Below, piece by piece: positions 32,201-38,546 of a DNA stretch of 56,373 bases; position 1 is the stretch's first letter, and each line of letters starts with the position of its first letter. The notes below the pieces were generated by a model. The model was given only the letters and a program-made list of their open reading frames with translations. It was not told where the DNA came from and made no database searches. The position numbers and the translations under genes were made by a program. The stretch is from contig CALWAV010000145.1 in the NCBI GenBank assembly GCA_944375745.1, positions 1-56,373 on the forward strand, read 5' to 3'. Origin of the DNA: an uncultured Merdimonas sp. (lineage in GTDB: Bacteria > Bacillota > Clostridia > Lachnospirales > Lachnospiraceae).

Positions 32201-32238
32201 AAAAAATACCGCCTGACTTCTTCTCAGAAATCAGGCGG
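32201..32238 (-). terminator. intrinsic terminator downstream of trxA
   Basis: On the minus strand CCGCCTGA and TCAGGCGG form an 8-bp stem (32238-32209), followed by TATTTTTT. It lies 16 bases after the trxA stop and closes the trxB-trxA unit. Confidence 0.85.
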
Positions 32239-32254
32239 CGTCTGCCTATCTCTT

Positions 32255-32566
32255 TTACGCTTCGTCTTCAATCATCTTGATAATAACCGGCTTCTGCTGG
32301 AGTCCGGTGGTGCGCTTCAGCTCCACGCCGTCCCGCATCAGGATCAGGGTCGGATAACCGGATACCTCATACTCCTCTACCAGTTCTTTATTCTTGTCAA
32401 AATCCACTTTCAAAATGTTTACCTTGTCGCCGCAGGTCTTGTCCACATCGTTCAGCACGAAAGACAGCATCTTGCAGGGACCGCAGGTGCTGGAAAAGAA
32501 ATCAGCCAGCACAAGGCCTTTATCTACTTCCTGACGGAATTCTTCCTGTGTTACTTCCTTTAACAT
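32255..32566 (-). CDS. trxA: thioredoxin
   Basis: A 103-residue thioredoxin with the active site CGPC at 28-31 (ADFFSSTCGPCKML) and the cis-proline in SGYPTLILMRDG. The residue before the motif is Thr rather than the usual Trp (STCGPC in place of WCGPC), a form common among clostridial thioredoxins. It reduces protein disulfides in the cytoplasm and is recharged by the product of trxB, 74 bases upstream. A terminator follows. The two genes lie directly downstream of the arylsulfotransferase gene. Confidence 0.93.
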   Translation of the reverse strand: MLKEVTQEEFRQEVDKGLVLADFFSSTCGPCKMLSFVLNDVDKTCGDKVNILKVDFDKNKELVEEYEVSGYPTLILMRDGVELKRTTGLQQKPVIIKMIEDEA

Positions 32567-32640
32567 AATTGATTCTCCTCTTTTCCCAATGGCCTCCCGC
32601 CGGCCCGGACAGGCCGGCGGCGTACGCCGTTTACCGCATT

Positions 32641-33558
32641 TTAAAGATTCTGTACATAGTGAGCCGCGCTCTGGGCCGCGATGGCGCCGTCCGCGCAGGC
32701 TGTGATAACCTGACGGAGATTTTTGGTGACGCAGTCTCCCGCTCCGAAAATTCCCGGAATCTTCGTCTTCATCATCGCGTCCACTTCCACATAGCCCATC
32801 TGATTCAGAATTCCCAGGTTTTTAAAGGGCTCGGTGGTGGGGGTCAGTCCGATGTACTCGAAGACCTGATCACAATCCACCTTGTTCTCTTCACCGGTCT
32901 TTGTGGACTTGAAATGAATGCCGCGGATTTTGCTGTCGCCGTAGAAGCCCAGCACATCCTGGTAGGGATAAATGGTCACATGATCCATGGCGCGCAGCTT
33001 GTCGCAGGCCATGGGATCCGCCGTCAGATCAAACATGGTAACGATGGTCAGAGACTTCACTATATCCGCCAGATAGATGGATTCCTCCACCGCAGAGTTT
33101 CCTCCGCCTACTACCACCACGTCCTTGCCCCGGCAGGCTGCTCCATCGCAGATGGCGCACCAGCTGATGCCGTGTCCCGCGTACTGCTTTTCGTTTTCCA
33201 CGCCCAGCATCCGGGGTCTTGTGCCTGTGGCAATGATGATGGATTTGGCGGTATATACCTTGTCCTCCTCCACGCAGCATACCAGCTTCTCGCCGTTCTC
33301 CTCCCGGATTTCCTTTACGGTCCGGTAGTCAAAGGCCACGTTCAGCTCCTGGGTATGCTGGTACATCTGAATGGCCAGCTCCGCCCCGTTGATGGTTCCC
33401 ATTCCTGTATAGTTCTGAATCTCATTTGTGTTGATAATCTGGCCGCCCGGAGCCAGTTTGTCCAGCATCAGCACAGACAGGTTGGCTCTCGCCGCGTAGA
33501 TGGAGGCAGTCATTCCCGCAGGGCCGCTTCCTATAATAATCAAATCATAATCTGCCAT
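32641..33558 (-). CDS. trxB: thioredoxin reductase
   Basis: A 305-residue low-molecular-weight flavoprotein. The FAD-binding GSGPAG lies at 10-15, the redox-active cysteines are Cys134 and Cys137 in SWCAICDGA, the NADPH-binding site is VVGGGNSAVEE, and the C-terminal FAD contact is GIFGAGDCV. It transfers electrons from NADPH to thioredoxin. It precedes trxA and follows the arylsulfotransferase gene by only 58 bases without a visible terminator, so readthrough from the PTS operon is possible. Confidence 0.95.
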   Translation of the reverse strand: MADYDLIIIGSGPAGMTASIYAARANLSVLMLDKLAPGGQIINTNEIQNYTGMGTINGAELAIQMYQHTQELNVAFDYRTVKEIREENGEKLVCCVEEDKVYTAKSIIIATGTRPRMLGVENEKQYAGHGISWCAICDGAACRGKDVVVVGGGNSAVEESIYLADIVKSLTIVTMFDLTADPMACDKLRAMDHVTIYPYQDVLGFYGDSKIRGIHFKSTKTGEENKVDCDQVFEYIGLTPTTEPFKNLGILNQMGYVEVDAMMKTKIPGIFGAGDCVTKNLRQVITACADGAIAAQSAAHYVQNL

Positions 33559-33616
33559 TTTTCTTTACCTTCTTTATTTTTTACCGTAAATCCGGAGTTT
33601 CCTCTTATCCGCAGGC

Positions 33617-35488
33617 TTATTCGCAGCGGATCTGAATTCCGGTGTCATACTTCTTGTCGTCCACAATCACCCGCACATCGAAGGTGCCTTTCAGGCCCGC
33701 TTTGTTGACGCTTAAGGTGATGCTTCTCGGGTCATTCTCAATAAAAGTGCCGCAGCACAGAGCATTAAATTTGTTTTTCGCAGTGGAAATGAAGTAGCCG
33801 TGCTCTTCCTCTCCGTTTTCCAGCATCAGCATTACCAGCTGGCCGCCCTCGAAAATAGCCTTGAAGGTGAAACGGTCCTCCTCCTCAATGATCTGAGCCT
33901 CATAGCGGTAGGACAACAGTTCGCCGCAGGGTTCCATGGGAATCAGCGTATCGAATTCCGGCGTCACGCCCATTTCGCCCAGACGGATTCCCTCTCCCAG
34001 AGGAAGGTTGTCCTGATCGTGGTACAGGGGCAGCTTCTCAGCCCGATAGAAGTTTCCTTCGATCTTCATTTCCATGATCACTTTTCCATCCAGCACTTCC
34101 ACAGTGATGCTCTCCGCACGCACATTGGGGTCATCCTTCATCAGCGCCGCCGGCTTCTCAGAAGCATGCTCGCCGTAATACTGGATTCCGCCGGAGTGGA
34201 CCAGATAATGTCCTTCCCCGTAGTACTCCACATTTCCGATATAGGAGGAGAAGAACTCCTCTCCCCGCTCCTTGCCGTACTGCCAGAGCTGCTCGATGGT
34301 CATATTTTCCTTATTGATCCGGTAAAGCACTCCTCTGGAGAAATTGTCCTTGTTCAGGCGGAATTTTTCCCGGATCTTGGAACGGTAATGGCCGTTGTCA
34401 AAGCACATCACATCTCCGTTGGGCGTCACCAGGCAGGCATGCTGCTCATAGGGCCAGTCGAAATCTCCCTCGCCCACGGGCTTAAAGAAATATTTCAGCT
34501 TTTCCTCCGGCCAGGTCTCCGGATCGCCCAGAATCCAGTTCAGCTTTCCGGTCTCATAGTCAATGTTGATCAGGCTGTCTGTGTGGCGGCCGGACAGGGT
34601 GATAGAATCCGTGTTTTTGTCATACCACAGGGCATTGTTGTGGAACCAGTCTCTGTCCGTATAGCCGCCCGAGGGCCCTTCTCCCGGGGTCAGGCAGTCC
34701 TTTAAGTCCCATCTCTTCTTTATTTTTCCGGTCTCCCGGTCCAGAAGGACAATCACGTCCTCCACCGTCACATAATCCGGATCCTCCGAGAGCACCAGAA
34801 TGTCTCCGTTTTCCATCTCCCACTGATCGTGGTGGTAGCCGCCCGGAATGGAATATTCCTTCACAATCTTGCCGGCCATGGTCATCTCATAGAGGCCCGA
34901 CATGTAATAGGGCATCTGAAGCACCCGCTCCGTTCCGATCAGGAAGTTGCCGTTTTTCAGGCGCTTCAGGTCAAACACCACCGGAACCGTCAGATGCCAG
35001 CGGACATCTCCCCGGTAATCAAAGCCGGTGGCCAGAGCGTTCAGAGACGGCGTCACGAATATCAGGTCCTGAGAAGTATATTCCGGTTCCGTCTTCATAT
35101 AGCACAGCTTCGGAGCGTCCCCGCTCAAAGGCTCTGTCTTTATGGTAATCTCATGGGCGCGCCCTTCGTAAGCTCTGAGCTCCACCCGGTTTTCACAGTC
35201 TGCGTACAGTCCCAGGACAGGGAGCACATGCTCCTTTGCCCTGGGGAAGGTATGTACGATATTTCCCCGTTCTTCTTTTCCGTATACCGTCATCGTAATG
35301 GCTGTCTCTTCCTCTGTGGTAAAAAGCACCACAGCCGCCAGAGGGTTGATCAGATACGGATTCAATTTTATCAGCGGCTTTTCAAGGGTGTACTCACCGC
35401 TTTTCCACTCTGCCAGCATCTGCTTTTCGGCTTCCGCCTGTCTCTTAATCAGACTTTCGCTGAAGCTGTAAGAAATCTTGTCTGACAT
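33617..35488 (-). CDS. assT: arylsulfate sulfotransferase (PAPS-independent, AssT family), predicted cytoplasmic
   Basis: About 623 residues from the ATG at 35488 (GAGGAGAC upstream). It resembles the beta-propeller AssT enzymes, which move a sulfuryl group from one phenolic ester to another phenol without PAPS. Expected active-site residues are seen: His-His in GGYHHDQWEMENGD (219-220), His283 in RDWFHNNALWYD, Arg301 in LSGRHTDSL and His350 in WPYEQHACLV. The 18-residue spacing between His283 and Arg301 equals that known in the E. coli enzyme. There is no signal peptide, unlike the periplasmic proteobacterial enzymes. It sits 28 bases after a SorC regulator in a PTS operon. Confidence 0.85.
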   Translation of the reverse strand: MSDKISYSFSESLIKRQAEAEKQMLAEWKSGEYTLEKPLIKLNPYLINPLAAVVLFTTEEETAITMTVYGKEERGNIVHTFPRAKEHVLPVLGLYADCENRVELRAYEGRAHEITIKTEPLSGDAPKLCYMKTEPEYTSQDLIFVTPSLNALATGFDYRGDVRWHLTVPVVFDLKRLKNGNFLIGTERVLQMPYYMSGLYEMTMAGKIVKEYSIPGGYHHDQWEMENGDILVLSEDPDYVTVEDVIVLLDRETGKIKKRWDLKDCLTPGEGPSGGYTDRDWFHNNALWYDKNTDSITLSGRHTDSLINIDYETGKLNWILGDPETWPEEKLKYFFKPVGEGDFDWPYEQHACLVTPNGDVMCFDNGHYRSKIREKFRLNKDNFSRGVLYRINKENMTIEQLWQYGKERGEEFFSSYIGNVEYYGEGHYLVHSGGIQYYGEHASEKPAALMKDDPNVRAESITVEVLDGKVIMEMKIEGNFYRAEKLPLYHDQDNLPLGEGIRLGEMGVTPEFDTLIPMEPCGELLSYRYEAQIIEEEDRFTFKAIFEGGQLVMLMLENGEEEHGYFISTAKNKFNALCCGTFIENDPRSITLSVNKAGLKGTFDVRVIVDDKKYDTGIQIRCE

Positions 35489-35516
35489 GGTTGTCTCCTC
35501 TCTGAGCGGCCTTCTT

Positions 35517-36491
35517 TCAGCCGCCCTGGGGGCCCACAAGCTTCTCCGCGATCCGGCTGTCCGTAATCAGACAGTCAATCAGCTTTCCCCGGAGAGCCCC
35601 GCAGATTGCGTGCGTCTTGTCTACGCCTCCCGCGGCCGCAATCACCCGTGGACCGTTTTTCAGTTTTTCAAATGGAATTCCGATTATCTTGTCGTTGATG
35701 GGATCCTGCAGCTTATTTCCGTCCCGGTCAAAGAAATAGCCGCAAAGGTACCCCACCGCTCCCTTTTTGATCAGGTCCCGCTTCTTCTGCTCCGTCAGAT
35801 ACCCTGCCCAGCTGTTCAGGGAACCGTCCAGAGACACGTCCGCGATTCCGGTAAGCACATAATCCACCCGATTAATTTTGTCCAGAGCCTTCTGTATCAG
35901 CTGCTCCTTCATCAGCTCCCTGCGCACAATATCACTGTTGACATACATGGGAGCATAAAGCATGGTGGCTGTGCCCTGAAAGGTATGGGCCATCCGCTGG
36001 ACCAGCGAGGTCACGTCCAGTTCCTGGCTGTTGTAGGCATCCGTGGAATTTCCCACCAGCTGCACCACCTGAATCTTCCTGGGTGATGAGGGCTTCAGCT
36101 GCCGCACTGTCTGATACATGGTCCTTCCCCAGGACAGTCCGATCATATCTCCGTCCTTCAGGATGTCATCCAGATAGCTGGCCGCCATCTCACCGATCCG
36201 TTTGATGGAAATATCCGTATTCTGGCTGCTGTAAAGGTCTGTGACCACCAGGGCTTCCTTCAGGCCGAACCTGCGCTTCAGCTCAGACTCCAGACGCATG
36301 GACCGCTTCAGCGGATAATTGATGTGAAATTCCACGATGCCTTCCTCCCGGGCAATCCGAAGGGCCCGGGATACCTTGGCCTTGGAGAAGAACAGCATGT
36401 TGGCAATATCCAGCTGGGACATTCCTTCCACGTAATACATCCGCGCGATCTCCGCAATCACAGCCAGTTCTTCGTCGCCAATCTGTCTCAT
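35517..36491 (-). CDS. SorC family (sugar-binding) transcriptional regulator
   Basis: A 324-residue regulator. The N-terminal helix-turn-helix is IARMYYVEGMSQLDIANMLFFSKAKVSRAL (about 13-43). The C-terminal part is a SorC/DeoR-type sugar-phosphate sensor with GLSWGRTMYQTV, VQLVGNS and the C-terminal IAAAGGVDKTHAICGAL. Members bind phosphorylated sugars and control adjacent uptake operons. It is cotranscribed with the IIC and IIB genes upstream and the sulfotransferase downstream, so it probably regulates its own operon through the palindromes ahead of the IIC gene. Confidence 0.9.
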   Translation of the reverse strand: MRQIGDEELAVIAEIARMYYVEGMSQLDIANMLFFSKAKVSRALRIAREEGIVEFHINYPLKRSMRLESELKRRFGLKEALVVTDLYSSQNTDISIKRIGEMAASYLDDILKDGDMIGLSWGRTMYQTVRQLKPSSPRKIQVVQLVGNSTDAYNSQELDVTSLVQRMAHTFQGTATMLYAPMYVNSDIVRRELMKEQLIQKALDKINRVDYVLTGIADVSLDGSLNSWAGYLTEQKKRDLIKKGAVGYLCGYFFDRDGNKLQDPINDKIIGIPFEKLKNGPRVIAAAGGVDKTHAICGALRGKLIDCLITDSRIAEKLVGPQGG

Positions 36492-36539
36492 TCCTGTTTC
36501 TTCTCCTTTATTTCATCTTTCTTCTGCCAGTTTCTTCCG

Positions 36540-36824
36540 TCAGTCAGCGATTCCGCTTTCCTTCAGCTTCGTCTCCAGCTCCTTCTTGTTCATCAGGTTC
36601 TTCAGGCCGATGATCTTGGTTCCTTCCTTCACCTTGAAGCTGTCTACAAAGTTTTCTCCCACTACAATCAAATCGTAATCGTGTGCCGTGGACTTTGCCT
36701 CGTCTATGCTGGTATGATGAATCGTGTGCTCCACGCCCAGTTTCTTCAGTACATTTGAACAGTTCATTTTCAGAAGCTGTGAGCTTCCCATTCCGCATCC
36801 GCATGCAACCAGTACTTTTAACAT
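36540..36824 (-). CDS. PTS EIIB component, ascorbate/galactitol (UlaB/SgaB) type
   Basis: About 94 residues from the ATG at 36824. It begins MLKVLVACGCGMGSSQLLKM; Cys8 in the CGCGMGSS loop is the residue phosphorylated by EIIA. The rest (YDLIVVGENFVDSFK, IIGLKNLMNKKEL) matches lactose-fold IIB proteins that partner with UlaA-like permeases. It lies 45 bases after the IIC gene. No EIIA gene of this class is in the operon, so phosphate must come from an EIIA encoded elsewhere. Confidence 0.88.
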   Translation of the reverse strand: MLKVLVACGCGMGSSQLLKMNCSNVLKKLGVEHTIHHTSIDEAKSTAHDYDLIVVGENFVDSFKVKEGTKIIGLKNLMNKKELETKLKESGIAD

Positions 36825-36869
36825 TTCGTTTACTTCCTTTCTCAAATGAAAATGCGTTTAGTTTACAAA

Positions 36870-38315
36870 TTAATCCTCGTCGTCCATGCCAAGGTTGAAA
36901 TAATTTTCCTTATTCTTGCGGTACTGCACCTGGGGAATCACCAGCATGGCAATGATGCACAGAACCGCGCCGGGTACCATCAGATACTTGATTGCCACAC
37001 CCATGGCCGGCCACAGGGTCGCCCAGTCAAGGTTGCCTACATAGCCGCCGAAGCTTCCCATCTGGAACAGGTTGATGGCAAAAGCGCTGCCCAGAACCTG
37101 CAGAAGGCCGGAGCCCACGCAGCAGGCAATCAGAGCCTTCATGCCGCCCTTCATGTTGGCGTACAGACCGATAGTCGCGTTGTCATAAAACAGAGGCACG
37201 AAGCCCGGAATAATCATCAGCGGGGACTTGAATACCAGCAGGCCCACAATGGCGATAAGCTGGCCCACAGCTCCGAACAGGAAGCCCAGGGTAACCGCGT
37301 TGGAATCTCCGAAGGAGTATGTGGCCGCGCAGTCCACTGCCGGCAGAGAGCCCTTCAGGATAGAACCGGAAATACCTTCGAAGGATTCTACCATCTCGCC
37401 TACGAACATACGGATACCGGTCTTCAGCACAACCAGAGATACCGCGAATGACGCGCAGCGCTGGAAGATATATACCGGGAAGGACAGGCCCGCTGTATAA
37501 TTGGAGGCGTCAAGCTCTTTCAGCAGATCGGAACCGAGAATCACCATAATCGTTCCGAAGAACAGAAGCATAATCAGAGTCGTGGAAACCACATAATCGT
37601 CCAGAACCTTCATGGCTCCGCCCAGCTTCAGCTCTTTCTTGTGCTCCTCGCCGTCTTTCTTCTTTCCCTTGAAGAACTTTCCGAAGCGGTACGCAAACCA
37701 TACGCCCAGCATCTGCTGATGGCCGATGGCAAAACCGGAACCGTCTGTCAGCTCCTGTGTAGCCTCTACAGTCAGGTTGGAGAATACAGACCAGTAGGTT
37801 CCGCACAGAAGGCCTACCAGAACGATTCCGCCCATGTTTCTCAAATCCGGAATCAGGAAGAAAATAATCCAGGTCGCTACGGTGGACTGCTTTACCATAA
37901 TGTGTCCTGTGGTAAACAGTGTACGCACCTTCGTATATTTCCGGAAAAATACCAGGATAATGTTCCAGACAAAGGCAATCAGCAGCGTGATCATGGCAAA
38001 GGAGGTGGTCACGCCGATGCTCTCCAGAGCGCTCTGGGCCGCTGTCAGGCCGAAATTCGGGTCAATGACTACCGCGTTCATGGCCCATTTCTGCTGAATG
38101 CCGTCCAGCAGCGGCTGTACGGTATTCTTCAGAGAGCTGGCACCCAGCTGAAGAATCATGTAACCCACTACAGTACGGATAAATCCCGCGGCAATTTCAT
38201 ACCATTTCCTCTTCAGAAGCGCATAACCTGCCACTACGATAAGGCCGATAAAGATAGCTGGCTGTGCAAACACATTGTTAAACAGCACATTCCAGATATT
38301 AATTATTACATTCAT
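36870..38315 (-). CDS. PTS EIIC permease, ascorbate (UlaA/SgaT) family
   Basis: About 481 residues from the ATG at 38315 (GGGGAAAG upstream). It has roughly 11 membrane helices. Family features are VFAQPAIFIGLIVVAGYALL at the start, RTVVGYMILQLGASSL, GFAIGHQQMLGVWFAY and GISGSILKGSLPAVDCAATYSFGDSNAVTLGFLFG. UlaA-type permeases import ascorbate or other sugar acids and alditols while the partner EIIB phosphorylates them. It is the first gene of the operon with IIB, SorC and the sulfotransferase. Substrate is unknown; none of the ula catabolic enzymes is nearby. Confidence 0.9.
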   Translation of the reverse strand: MNVIINIWNVLFNNVFAQPAIFIGLIVVAGYALLKRKWYEIAAGFIRTVVGYMILQLGASSLKNTVQPLLDGIQQKWAMNAVVIDPNFGLTAAQSALESIGVTTSFAMITLLIAFVWNIILVFFRKYTKVRTLFTTGHIMVKQSTVATWIIFFLIPDLRNMGGIVLVGLLCGTYWSVFSNLTVEATQELTDGSGFAIGHQQMLGVWFAYRFGKFFKGKKKDGEEHKKELKLGGAMKVLDDYVVSTTLIMLLFFGTIMVILGSDLLKELDASNYTAGLSFPVYIFQRCASFAVSLVVLKTGIRMFVGEMVESFEGISGSILKGSLPAVDCAATYSFGDSNAVTLGFLFGAVGQLIAIVGLLVFKSPLMIIPGFVPLFYDNATIGLYANMKGGMKALIACCVGSGLLQVLGSAFAINLFQMGSFGGYVGNLDWATLWPAMGVAIKYLMVPGAVLCIIAMLVIPQVQYRKNKENYFNLGMDDED

Positions 38316-38452
38316 ATCTTTCCCCACTTTCTGGTGTTGTCACCGCCGTACACTGGCTGACAGAAGCTGGCGGCCAGGCCTCATCCTTTTCTTTTCCCGG
38401 TCTGTCTGCCGATACGGCTCATTTGCATATTTCATTCACACGTGTTACCTGT

Positions 38453-38481
38453 ATCATAGTTGATATTTGAAATTTCGTCAA
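38453..38481 (-). promoter_or_regulatory. sigma-A promoter of the PTS-SorC-AssT operon
   Basis: On the minus strand TTGACG (38481-38476), 17 bases, TATGAT (38458-38453), about 140 bases ahead of the IIC start. A GAAATTTC palindrome (38469-38476) lies in the spacer. Confidence 0.7.
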
Positions 38482-38546
38482 TTATTTGACGAGATTATGA
38501 AATTAATTTCATTTTACAGGAGAAGATTTGTGAAATTAGATTCATG
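38469..38546. promoter_or_regulatory. array of three GAAATT-type palindromes, candidate SorC operators
   Basis: GAAATTTC (38469-38476), the perfect 16-base palindrome ATGAAATTAATTTCAT (38497-38512) and GTGAAATTAGATTCAT (38531-38546) are centred 32 and 34 bases apart, about three helical turns. A separate palindrome, CGTCAATTATTTGACG (38476-38491), overlaps the -35 box. The layout fits cooperative binding by an oligomeric regulator; SorC-family proteins are usually tetramers. Confidence 0.55.

Follow-up and report, generated by a model that had tools for sequence, protein, structure and literature searches.

A phosphotransferase, arylsulfate sulfotransferase and thioredoxin operon that probably imports an organic sulfate and removes its sulfate as sulfite

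Six genes on the minus strand of a 56,373-nucleotide contig from an uncultured Merdimonas species (CALWAV010000145.1, analysed at full length and referred to here as the window) probably serve to import a sugar acid that carries a sulfate group (perhaps vitamin C sulfate) and to remove its sulfate as sulfite by way of a dedicated thioredoxin pair. In order, they encode the IIC and IIB components of a phosphotransferase system (PTS) related to the ascorbate transporter, a SorC-type regulator, the arylsulfate sulfotransferase AssT, a thioredoxin reductase (TrxB) and a thioredoxin (TrxA). That the operon is a unit for the uptake and reductive desulfation of some organic sulfate has, in our estimation, an even chance of being right. 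A more specific version, in which AssT enzymes of the so-called cluster II are thioredoxin-coupled organosulfate reductases that release sulfite without ATP, and in which the substrate here is L-ascorbate 2-sulfate entering by a PTS re-tuned from a vitamin C transporter, is assigned a probability of about 0.35. The features are:

36870..38327, minus strand: PTS component EIIC (EIIC-GAT, a UlaA paralogue); PF03611, 309.5 bits against a cut-off of 24.2
36540..36824, minus strand: PTS component EIIB (UlaB-like), with its ATG at 36824; PF02302, 62 bits against 23.6 (scanned from 36821)
35517..36491, minus strand: SorC/DeoR-type regulator with sugar-binding domain; PF04198, 234.1 bits against 27
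33617..35488, minus strand: AssT, 623 amino acids, cytoplasmic-type, cluster II-like; PF05935, 340.9 bits against 24.2
32641..33558, minus strand: thioredoxin reductase TrxB, motif CAIC; PF07992, 155.7 bits
32255..32566, minus strand: thioredoxin TrxA, motif TCGPC; PF00085, 86.5 bits
38498..38511, no strand assigned: palindrome TGAAATTAATTTCA, putative SorC operator; exact upstream of IIC in 13 of 14 PTS-type loci
38453..38481, minus strand: promoter-like TTGACG-17-TATGAT upstream of IIC, from a motif scan
32208..32239, minus strand: intrinsic terminator after trxA, a 14-pair stem followed by a run of T

Sulfotransferase, thioredoxin and sulfite reductase

No partner accompanies this type of AssT more consistently than thioredoxin, even where there is no PTS. 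TrxB and a thioredoxin are encoded within 6 kb and on the same strand for 88 of 129 similar AssT (66 of 103 loci) and for none of 13 distant ones. Similar AssT are distinct proteins that share 44% identity or more with the window's; they were counted from open reading frames of 480-800 amino acids in the window and in loci L116-L146, L147-L226 and L307-L326, leaving out L107-L115 (duplicates of named loci) as well as fragments, fusions and frames outside that length range. Near AssT that lack a PTS, the pair is present in 74 of 114 cases. In a tree from which one outlier (L176_14361) was dropped, 61 linked TrxBs of the main type split at 100/100 from 20 comparison TrxBs, all drawn from the genus. 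Every one of the 61 lies within 6 kb of an AssT, and their clade spans three phyla, with Lachnospiraceae, Erysipelotrichaceae, Olsenella, Selenomonadales, Desulfosporosinus and Desulfobulbaceae among its sources.

The canonical thioredoxin motif is WCGPC. The 65 linked thioredoxins with a readable motif comprise 59 with TCGPC, one with ACGPC and five with CHVC, and in none does Trp precede the first Cys. At L314, L322, L323 and L324, which represent two other families, AssT is accompanied by a CHVC thioredoxin and a separate TrxB clade (again 100/100); L316 has the CHVC thioredoxin without TrxB. Since there are two thioredoxin types, each with its own TrxB clade, the pairing was probably assembled at least twice. 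The window's own TrxA and TrxB are diverged members of their families, below the NCBIfam equivalog cut-offs (TIGR01068, 86.7 against 96.8, and TIGR01292, 314.4 against 343.45, respectively). That thioredoxin is functionally coupled to AssT is held with high confidence, and the pair as an unrelated neighbour was rejected on the strength of the linkage and of the dedicated TrxB clade. An initial annotation of this DNA had left the pair without a role in the chemistry; that view looks incomplete in the light of the comparison, which finds thioredoxin beside AssT even without a PTS and finds sulfite reductase genes close by. No thioredoxin/TrxB pair accompanies the AssT paralogues of L130, L132 and L133, whose neighbours are DASS-like transporters, UPF0261 and phosphoenolpyruvate-hydrolase-like genes.

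All three sulfite reductase genes, asrABC, are found no farther than 9 kb from 32 AssT, spread over 18 loci; these are 32 of the 88 thioredoxin-linked AssT, against 0 of the 41 others. The AsrABC proteins of one scanned representative exceed the NCBIfam cut-offs (371.5 against 324.1, 333.5 against 288.6 and 439.9 against 323.15), siroheme genes come next at several loci, and a TauE sulfite exporter is encoded beside AssT at L309. Co-occurrence with AsrABC, together with thioredoxin as the steadiest partner, therefore points to reductive release of sulfite, and sulfite as the product of AssT and thioredoxin is moderately favoured. In Hungatella hathewayi (L118:3397-14112, the same place as L182) an Fnr-like regulator, a DASS-like transporter, TrxB, TrxA, two AssT, AsrABC and siroheme genes are clustered in what looks like a complete organosulfate-to-sulfide unit. 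With both strands counted, 88 of the 114 AssT without PTS have a DASS/CitMHS-like transporter within 6 kb, and 58 of these also have an Fnr-like regulator no more than 9 kb away; the three transporters that were scanned gave DASS/CitMHS matches with mixed scores, under the NCBIfam DASS cut-off. A NIR_SIR protein is encoded in all 16 genus genomes; that of the window's genome (L325/L256, G000:C68) is 29% identical to AsrC and adjoins a protein that by eye resembles flavin disulfide reductases.

The window's AssT begins with MSDKISYSF and by eye has no signal sequence, which agrees with the cytoplasmic-type enzyme of the initial annotation. Aligned with E. coli AssT (3elq) and a mutant of it (4p04), it retains the active-site residues H350, H219/220, H283, N285 and R301, with His350 at the position of H436N; His350 is present in all 129 similar AssT. 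Its AlphaFold model (mean predicted local distance difference test score, pLDDT, 84.6) has 4p04 as top Foldseek match (E 1.2e-25). The Cys-containing loop of 3elq, with a disulfide that we take to be Cys418-Cys424, is a gap in the window's protein, and by eye the leader of cluster I is missing as well. We place it provisionally with cluster II of PMC13426309 (Desulfitobacterium/Hungatella) because of the position of its His, its length, its lack of a leader and its 60% identity to an AssT of a Hungatella effluvii genome (L183). In those published enzymes the catalytic His is numbered H351; five related enzymes, one of them from H. effluvii, are active on p-nitrophenyl sulfate (pNPS) (PMC11576661). 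The window's AssT would likewise carry out arylsulfate sulfuryl transfer.

Cys578, in the C-terminal part of the protein, is present in 129 of 129 similar AssT and gapped in 13 of 13 distant ones. A thioredoxin-specific Cys362 was considered and rejected: in the first alignment Cys occupied that position in 81 of 82 thioredoxin-linked AssT and in 21 of 30 others, and several thioredoxin-linked loci of the phylum sample have Val or Leu there. The window's genome also encodes another, distantly related AssT (25% identity) in other surroundings (L141, G000:C15), and another genome has four tandem AssT genes with N-termini that by eye are leader-like (L135:6151-14785).

Conservation and layout of the operon

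The comparison covered the best 80 of 314 relatives, a family sample of 397 genomes and a phylum sample of 398; Fisher tests on its co-occurrence counts ignore kinship. Within the genus, an AssT orthologue (at least 77% identity) is found in ten of 16 genomes, and in the same ten the orthologues of IIC (at least 84%) and TrxB (at least 64%) are adjacent to it, AssT and IIC both being missing from the other six. The co-location of AssT, IIC and TrxB orthologues in the same ten genomes puts the gene run beyond chance. Gene order leads to the same rejection of a chance neighbourhood: IIC-IIB-SorC-AssT is kept at all 15 distinct loci of the PTS type (IIC beside AssT), and TrxB-TrxA come next in 14, the exception being L157, where an EIIA gene stands in their place. 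L157 shows the order again, and so does Olsenella, which belongs to a different phylum (Actinomycetota). The nearest named relatives are labelled uncultured Merdimonas sp. and so belong to the Lachnospiraceae, the rest being unclassified Lachnospiraceae or Clostridia and, in one case, Olsenella sp. An285; a search of the 397 family genomes gave, besides the window's own IIC, none that exceeds 54% identity. The initial annotation had staked its proposal on whether PTS and assT genes are conserved together: they are, and the proposal stands as far as this comparison goes.

All six genes were confirmed where the initial annotation had put them, with domain scores over the cut-offs and gaps of 45, 48, 28, 58 and 74 bases along the run. 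IIC probably starts at the ATG at 38315, which the ribosome-binding-site-like GTGGGGAAAG precedes. The palindrome TGAAATTAATTTCA is probably the operator of SorC. Matches to it were found at 29 of 352 loci, many of which duplicate one another, and all 29 carry this operon's IIC; the chance expectation, with at most one mismatch, is 0.01 per window. The upstream sequence of L148 is too short to check. The same 13 of 14 checkable PTS-type upstream regions that carry the palindrome also have the TTGAC, spacer and TATnAT elements, which upholds the promoter proposed ahead of IIC; a second promoter-like site on the minus strand lies inside sorC (36169-36142). The terminator proposed after trxA and nowhere earlier (32239-32208) is likewise the sole terminator-like site of the minus strand in the scan. 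By themselves the site scans are at chance level (promoters, 5 against 5.5 expected; terminators, 4 against 7.0 expected). On this layout the six genes would form one transcript.

Two further observations concern the operon's own evolution. The window's trxB is 67% identical to that of its nearest sister, L147, as against 99% for IIC and 96% for AssT, and its TrxB groups with those of L150, L151 and L153, as if an allele had been swapped within the operon. At L157 a second IIC-IIB pair and a sulfatase gene (L157:3747-6986) lie immediately upstream of the IIC-IIB-SorC-AssT-EIIA run.

The permease and its candidate substrate

The window's IIC matches the UlaA structures 4rp8 and 5zov (E about 1e-83), is approximately 48% identical to the genus UlaA paralogue and scores under the ascorbate-IIC equivalog NF006919 (352.1 against 380). 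When the ascorbate-contact residues of UlaA are taken from PMC6048161, the AssT-linked IICs keep H135, H194, Q195, R288 and D314 in 15 of 15 cases and are changed at three other contacts (Y87N and M410N, 15/15; Q139K, 14/15); S59 and F362 are also changed in 14 of 15, so that the full UlaA contact set is not retained. Tyr87, Met410 and Gln139 are found in E. coli UlaA and in all 18 UlaA-type IICs that have those columns; in the window's IIC, counted from the GTG at 38327, the corresponding residues are N91, N432 and K146. Ascorbate bearing an extra anionic group would fit a pocket with these smaller residues and the positive charge, and the permease seems adapted to a compound of that kind, anionic and ascorbate-like. 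An IIC with Asn at 410 only (L337) is intermediate. Another ascorbate-type IIC with N87, K139 and N410 (L346:275-3354) adjoins genes for a sulfatase (PF00884, SGSH_C) and for a PRD regulator with EIIA, with no AssT in the 12 kb around it; the L157 operon is flanked by a sulfatase and an EIIA.

The six-gene run was said in the initial annotation to hold no EIIA and no sugar-catabolic enzyme, and none was found in it. A separate ula operon could account for this, since it could supply EIIA, UlaG and the UlaE-like and UlaF-like enzymes. In the genus that operon (L290/L295) encodes UlaG (609.7 against 306), an EIIA-like protein, IIC (402.3 against 380), IIB, an L-ribulose-5-phosphate 3-epimerase (UlaE-like) and an AraD/UlaF-like protein; in the window's genome the ula contig starts inside IIC (L305). 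UlaG is present in 14 of the 15 genomes with PTS-type AssT, the single miss being the window's own. Elsewhere it is found in six of 20 AssT-bearing genomes that were selected for a locus without PTS, in 36 of the 397 genomes of the family and in 28 of 140 genomes of Olsenella's family, base rates that include the centre genome or its genus-mates.

L-Ascorbate 2-sulfate is the best-fitting and leading candidate substrate. Sulfated ascorbate as what the PTS carries is a tentative assignment, to which we give a little less than an even chance. The compound, an enol sulfate, is reported from brine shrimp cysts in a paper according to which mammals hold free ascorbate only (PMC6191929), and it has been measured in human metabolomics (PMC11322087). 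The link between PTS transport and sulfuryl chemistry that was proposed in the initial annotation is likely, because AssT is of the cytoplasmic type and the permease looks suited to an anionic ascorbate-like compound; the accompanying suggestion of sulfate transfer inside the cell gives way to release of sulfite, which is favoured instead.

Proposed mechanism, its alternatives and its meaning

In the proposed pathway IIC and IIB, with EIIA borrowed from the ula operon, would import and phosphorylate an anionic ascorbate-like substrate. Cytoplasmic AssT would take the sulfuryl group onto His350, as E. coli AssT does onto His436, and would pass it to a thiol of the dedicated thioredoxin, not to a phenol, perhaps by way of Cys578. 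The second thioredoxin Cys would expel sulfite, the disulfide being re-reduced by TrxB, and sulfite would pass to a sulfite reductase (AsrABC in many of the related clusters), while ascorbate 6-phosphate would enter the Ula pathway. SorC would control the operon through the palindrome. An aryl or enol sulfate would be a ready-made activated sulfate and, since the ester would arrive pre-activated, no ATP would be spent on activation. In the reduction of adenosine 5'-phosphosulfate (APS) or 3'-phosphoadenosine 5'-phosphosulfate (PAPS), a sulfuryl group is transferred to a thiol and thioredoxin then releases sulfite. The chemistry proposed here is like that of APS/PAPS reductase (CysH) with thioredoxin, as generally understood; CysH uses APS or PAPS made with ATP, whereas the donor here would be an imported ester, and Pfam gives no PAPS-reductase domain match among the six gene products. 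The E. coli enzyme follows a ping-pong mechanism in which its histidine is sulfated, and the Eubacterium A-44 enzyme leaves its donor unhydrolysed (PMC13426309); an acceptor is therefore needed, and a dedicated cytoplasmic thioredoxin would be a fitting one.

Each part of this scheme has known counterparts. The E. coli AssT-DsbL-DsbI system (cluster I) shares the propeller fold, the active-site residues and a thiol-redox pair encoded alongside, but it is periplasmic and DsbL makes its disulfide, whereas the window's AssT lacks the disulfide loop and has reducing partners. The cluster II enzymes of D. hafniense and H. effluvii are alike in family, in the absence of a signal peptide (by eye) and in the place of the catalytic His; in print they are biocatalysts, whereas the window's AssT comes with a PTS, a SorC regulator and a thioredoxin pair of its own. 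UlaABC has homologous IIC and IIB and shares the five polar ascorbate contacts with the window's IIC, which differs from it in the Y87N, Q139K and M410N changes and in falling below the equivalog, in an operon without EIIA or UlaG. AsrABC operons accompany AssT at related loci and are absent from the window's operon. Cpz4 of caprazamycin biosynthesis (9kf4) is, like the window's AssT, PAPS-independent and of related fold; it serves biosynthetic sulfation and is distant in sequence (E 0.04).

Several observations weigh against the proposed pathway. The acceptors known for AssT are phenols, along with other compounds that bear hydroxy or amino groups (PMC13426309). Cys578 sits in a low-confidence loop of the model and is invariant with or without the thioredoxin pair, and is therefore not thioredoxin-specific. 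No full pair lies near 41 of the 129 similar AssT, among which are second paralogues, genes on contigs cut short and a number of loci from other families, nor beside the PTS-type AssT of L157. AsrA (46-48% identity) is found in five of the ten genus genomes with AssT and in three of the six without, so that the idea of its tracking AssT within the genus was rejected, and it was not found in the window's own genome, which is 83% complete. Most PTS-type loci belong to one genus-level group, and the palindrome is missing at the Olsenella locus (L158). As to the permease, the Olsenella IIC retains Gln139, the sulfatase-linked L346 IIC lacks Q195 and R288, and the neighbours of the L337 IIC include, by eye, neither AssT nor sulfatase.

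The competitor nearest to the proposed pathway accepts its AssT-thioredoxin chemistry and changes only the cargo, the PTS importing some other sulfated or anionic sugar acid or glycoside. The failure of IIC to reach the ascorbate equivalog and the three altered pocket residues speak for it, as do the SGSH_C (N-sulfoglucosamine sulfohydrolase) domains of the sulfatases near the L157 and L346 IICs. We think it rather unlikely in view of the five polar ascorbate contacts kept in every AssT-linked IIC and of UlaG, which is also present in L151, L157 and L158 (the naive joint chance, 0.0016, assumes three independent genomes and the family base rate for L151 and L157, the kinship of L151 to the genus not being established). 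Somewhat less probable still is an ordinary intracellular sulfotransferase that moves sulfate from imported esters to phenolic acceptors in detoxification or salvage, TrxB and TrxA merely keeping an AssT Cys reduced. Relatives do use pNPS as sulfate donor for phenol and catechol (PMC11576661), and the invariant Cys578 could need reduction; the upkeep of a cytoplasmic Cys, on the other hand, hardly calls for a dedicated, diverged TrxB clade, the confinement of AsrABC to thioredoxin-linked AssT implies sulfite, and published accounts of purified relatives active with pNPS and phenol make, in the portions available, no mention of thioredoxin.

The thioredoxin pair might instead serve ascorbate redox (dehydroascorbate recycling) in a second ascorbate-use system, in which AssT would handle a minor conjugate. 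IIC is after all a UlaA paralogue and ula genes co-occur, but the same TrxB clade and the pair itself accompany AssT that have no PTS, and no TrxB or thioredoxin match was found at ten loci around the genus UlaA paralogue; the idea was disfavoured on these grounds and is given little weight. Least credible of all is that the genes have separate functions and that their order was inherited without functional meaning. The concentration of PTS-type loci in one genus-level group would allow it; the recurrence of the order in L157 and Olsenella, a palindrome that is conserved and, among the 352 loci compared, private to the operon, and the linkage of AssT to two different thioredoxin types all argue against it. 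Because of the genome comparisons, an AssT that merely neighbours an unrelated PTS and a housekeeping thioredoxin is very unlikely.

We found no link of AssT to thioredoxin, PTS or AsrABC in the open-licence PubMed Central literature, as far as its accessible text goes, which is no proof of novelty. A 2026 review calls the physiological role of PAPS-independent sulfotransferases poorly understood, and thioredoxin does not appear in its text (PMC13426309); the dedicated thioredoxin pair and the AsrABC genes at 18 related loci bear on that role. The enzyme family is already known, and the pathway would be of a new kind if release of sulfite were shown. Host and dietary sulfate conjugates (of phenols, of drugs and perhaps of vitamin C) would then be direct sources of sulfite and sulfide that cost no ATP, gut-type and sulfate-reducing bacteria would be using aryl and enol sulfates as pre-activated sulfate that feeds sulfite reductase, and the PTS described here would be a route of entry for a sulfated vitamin.

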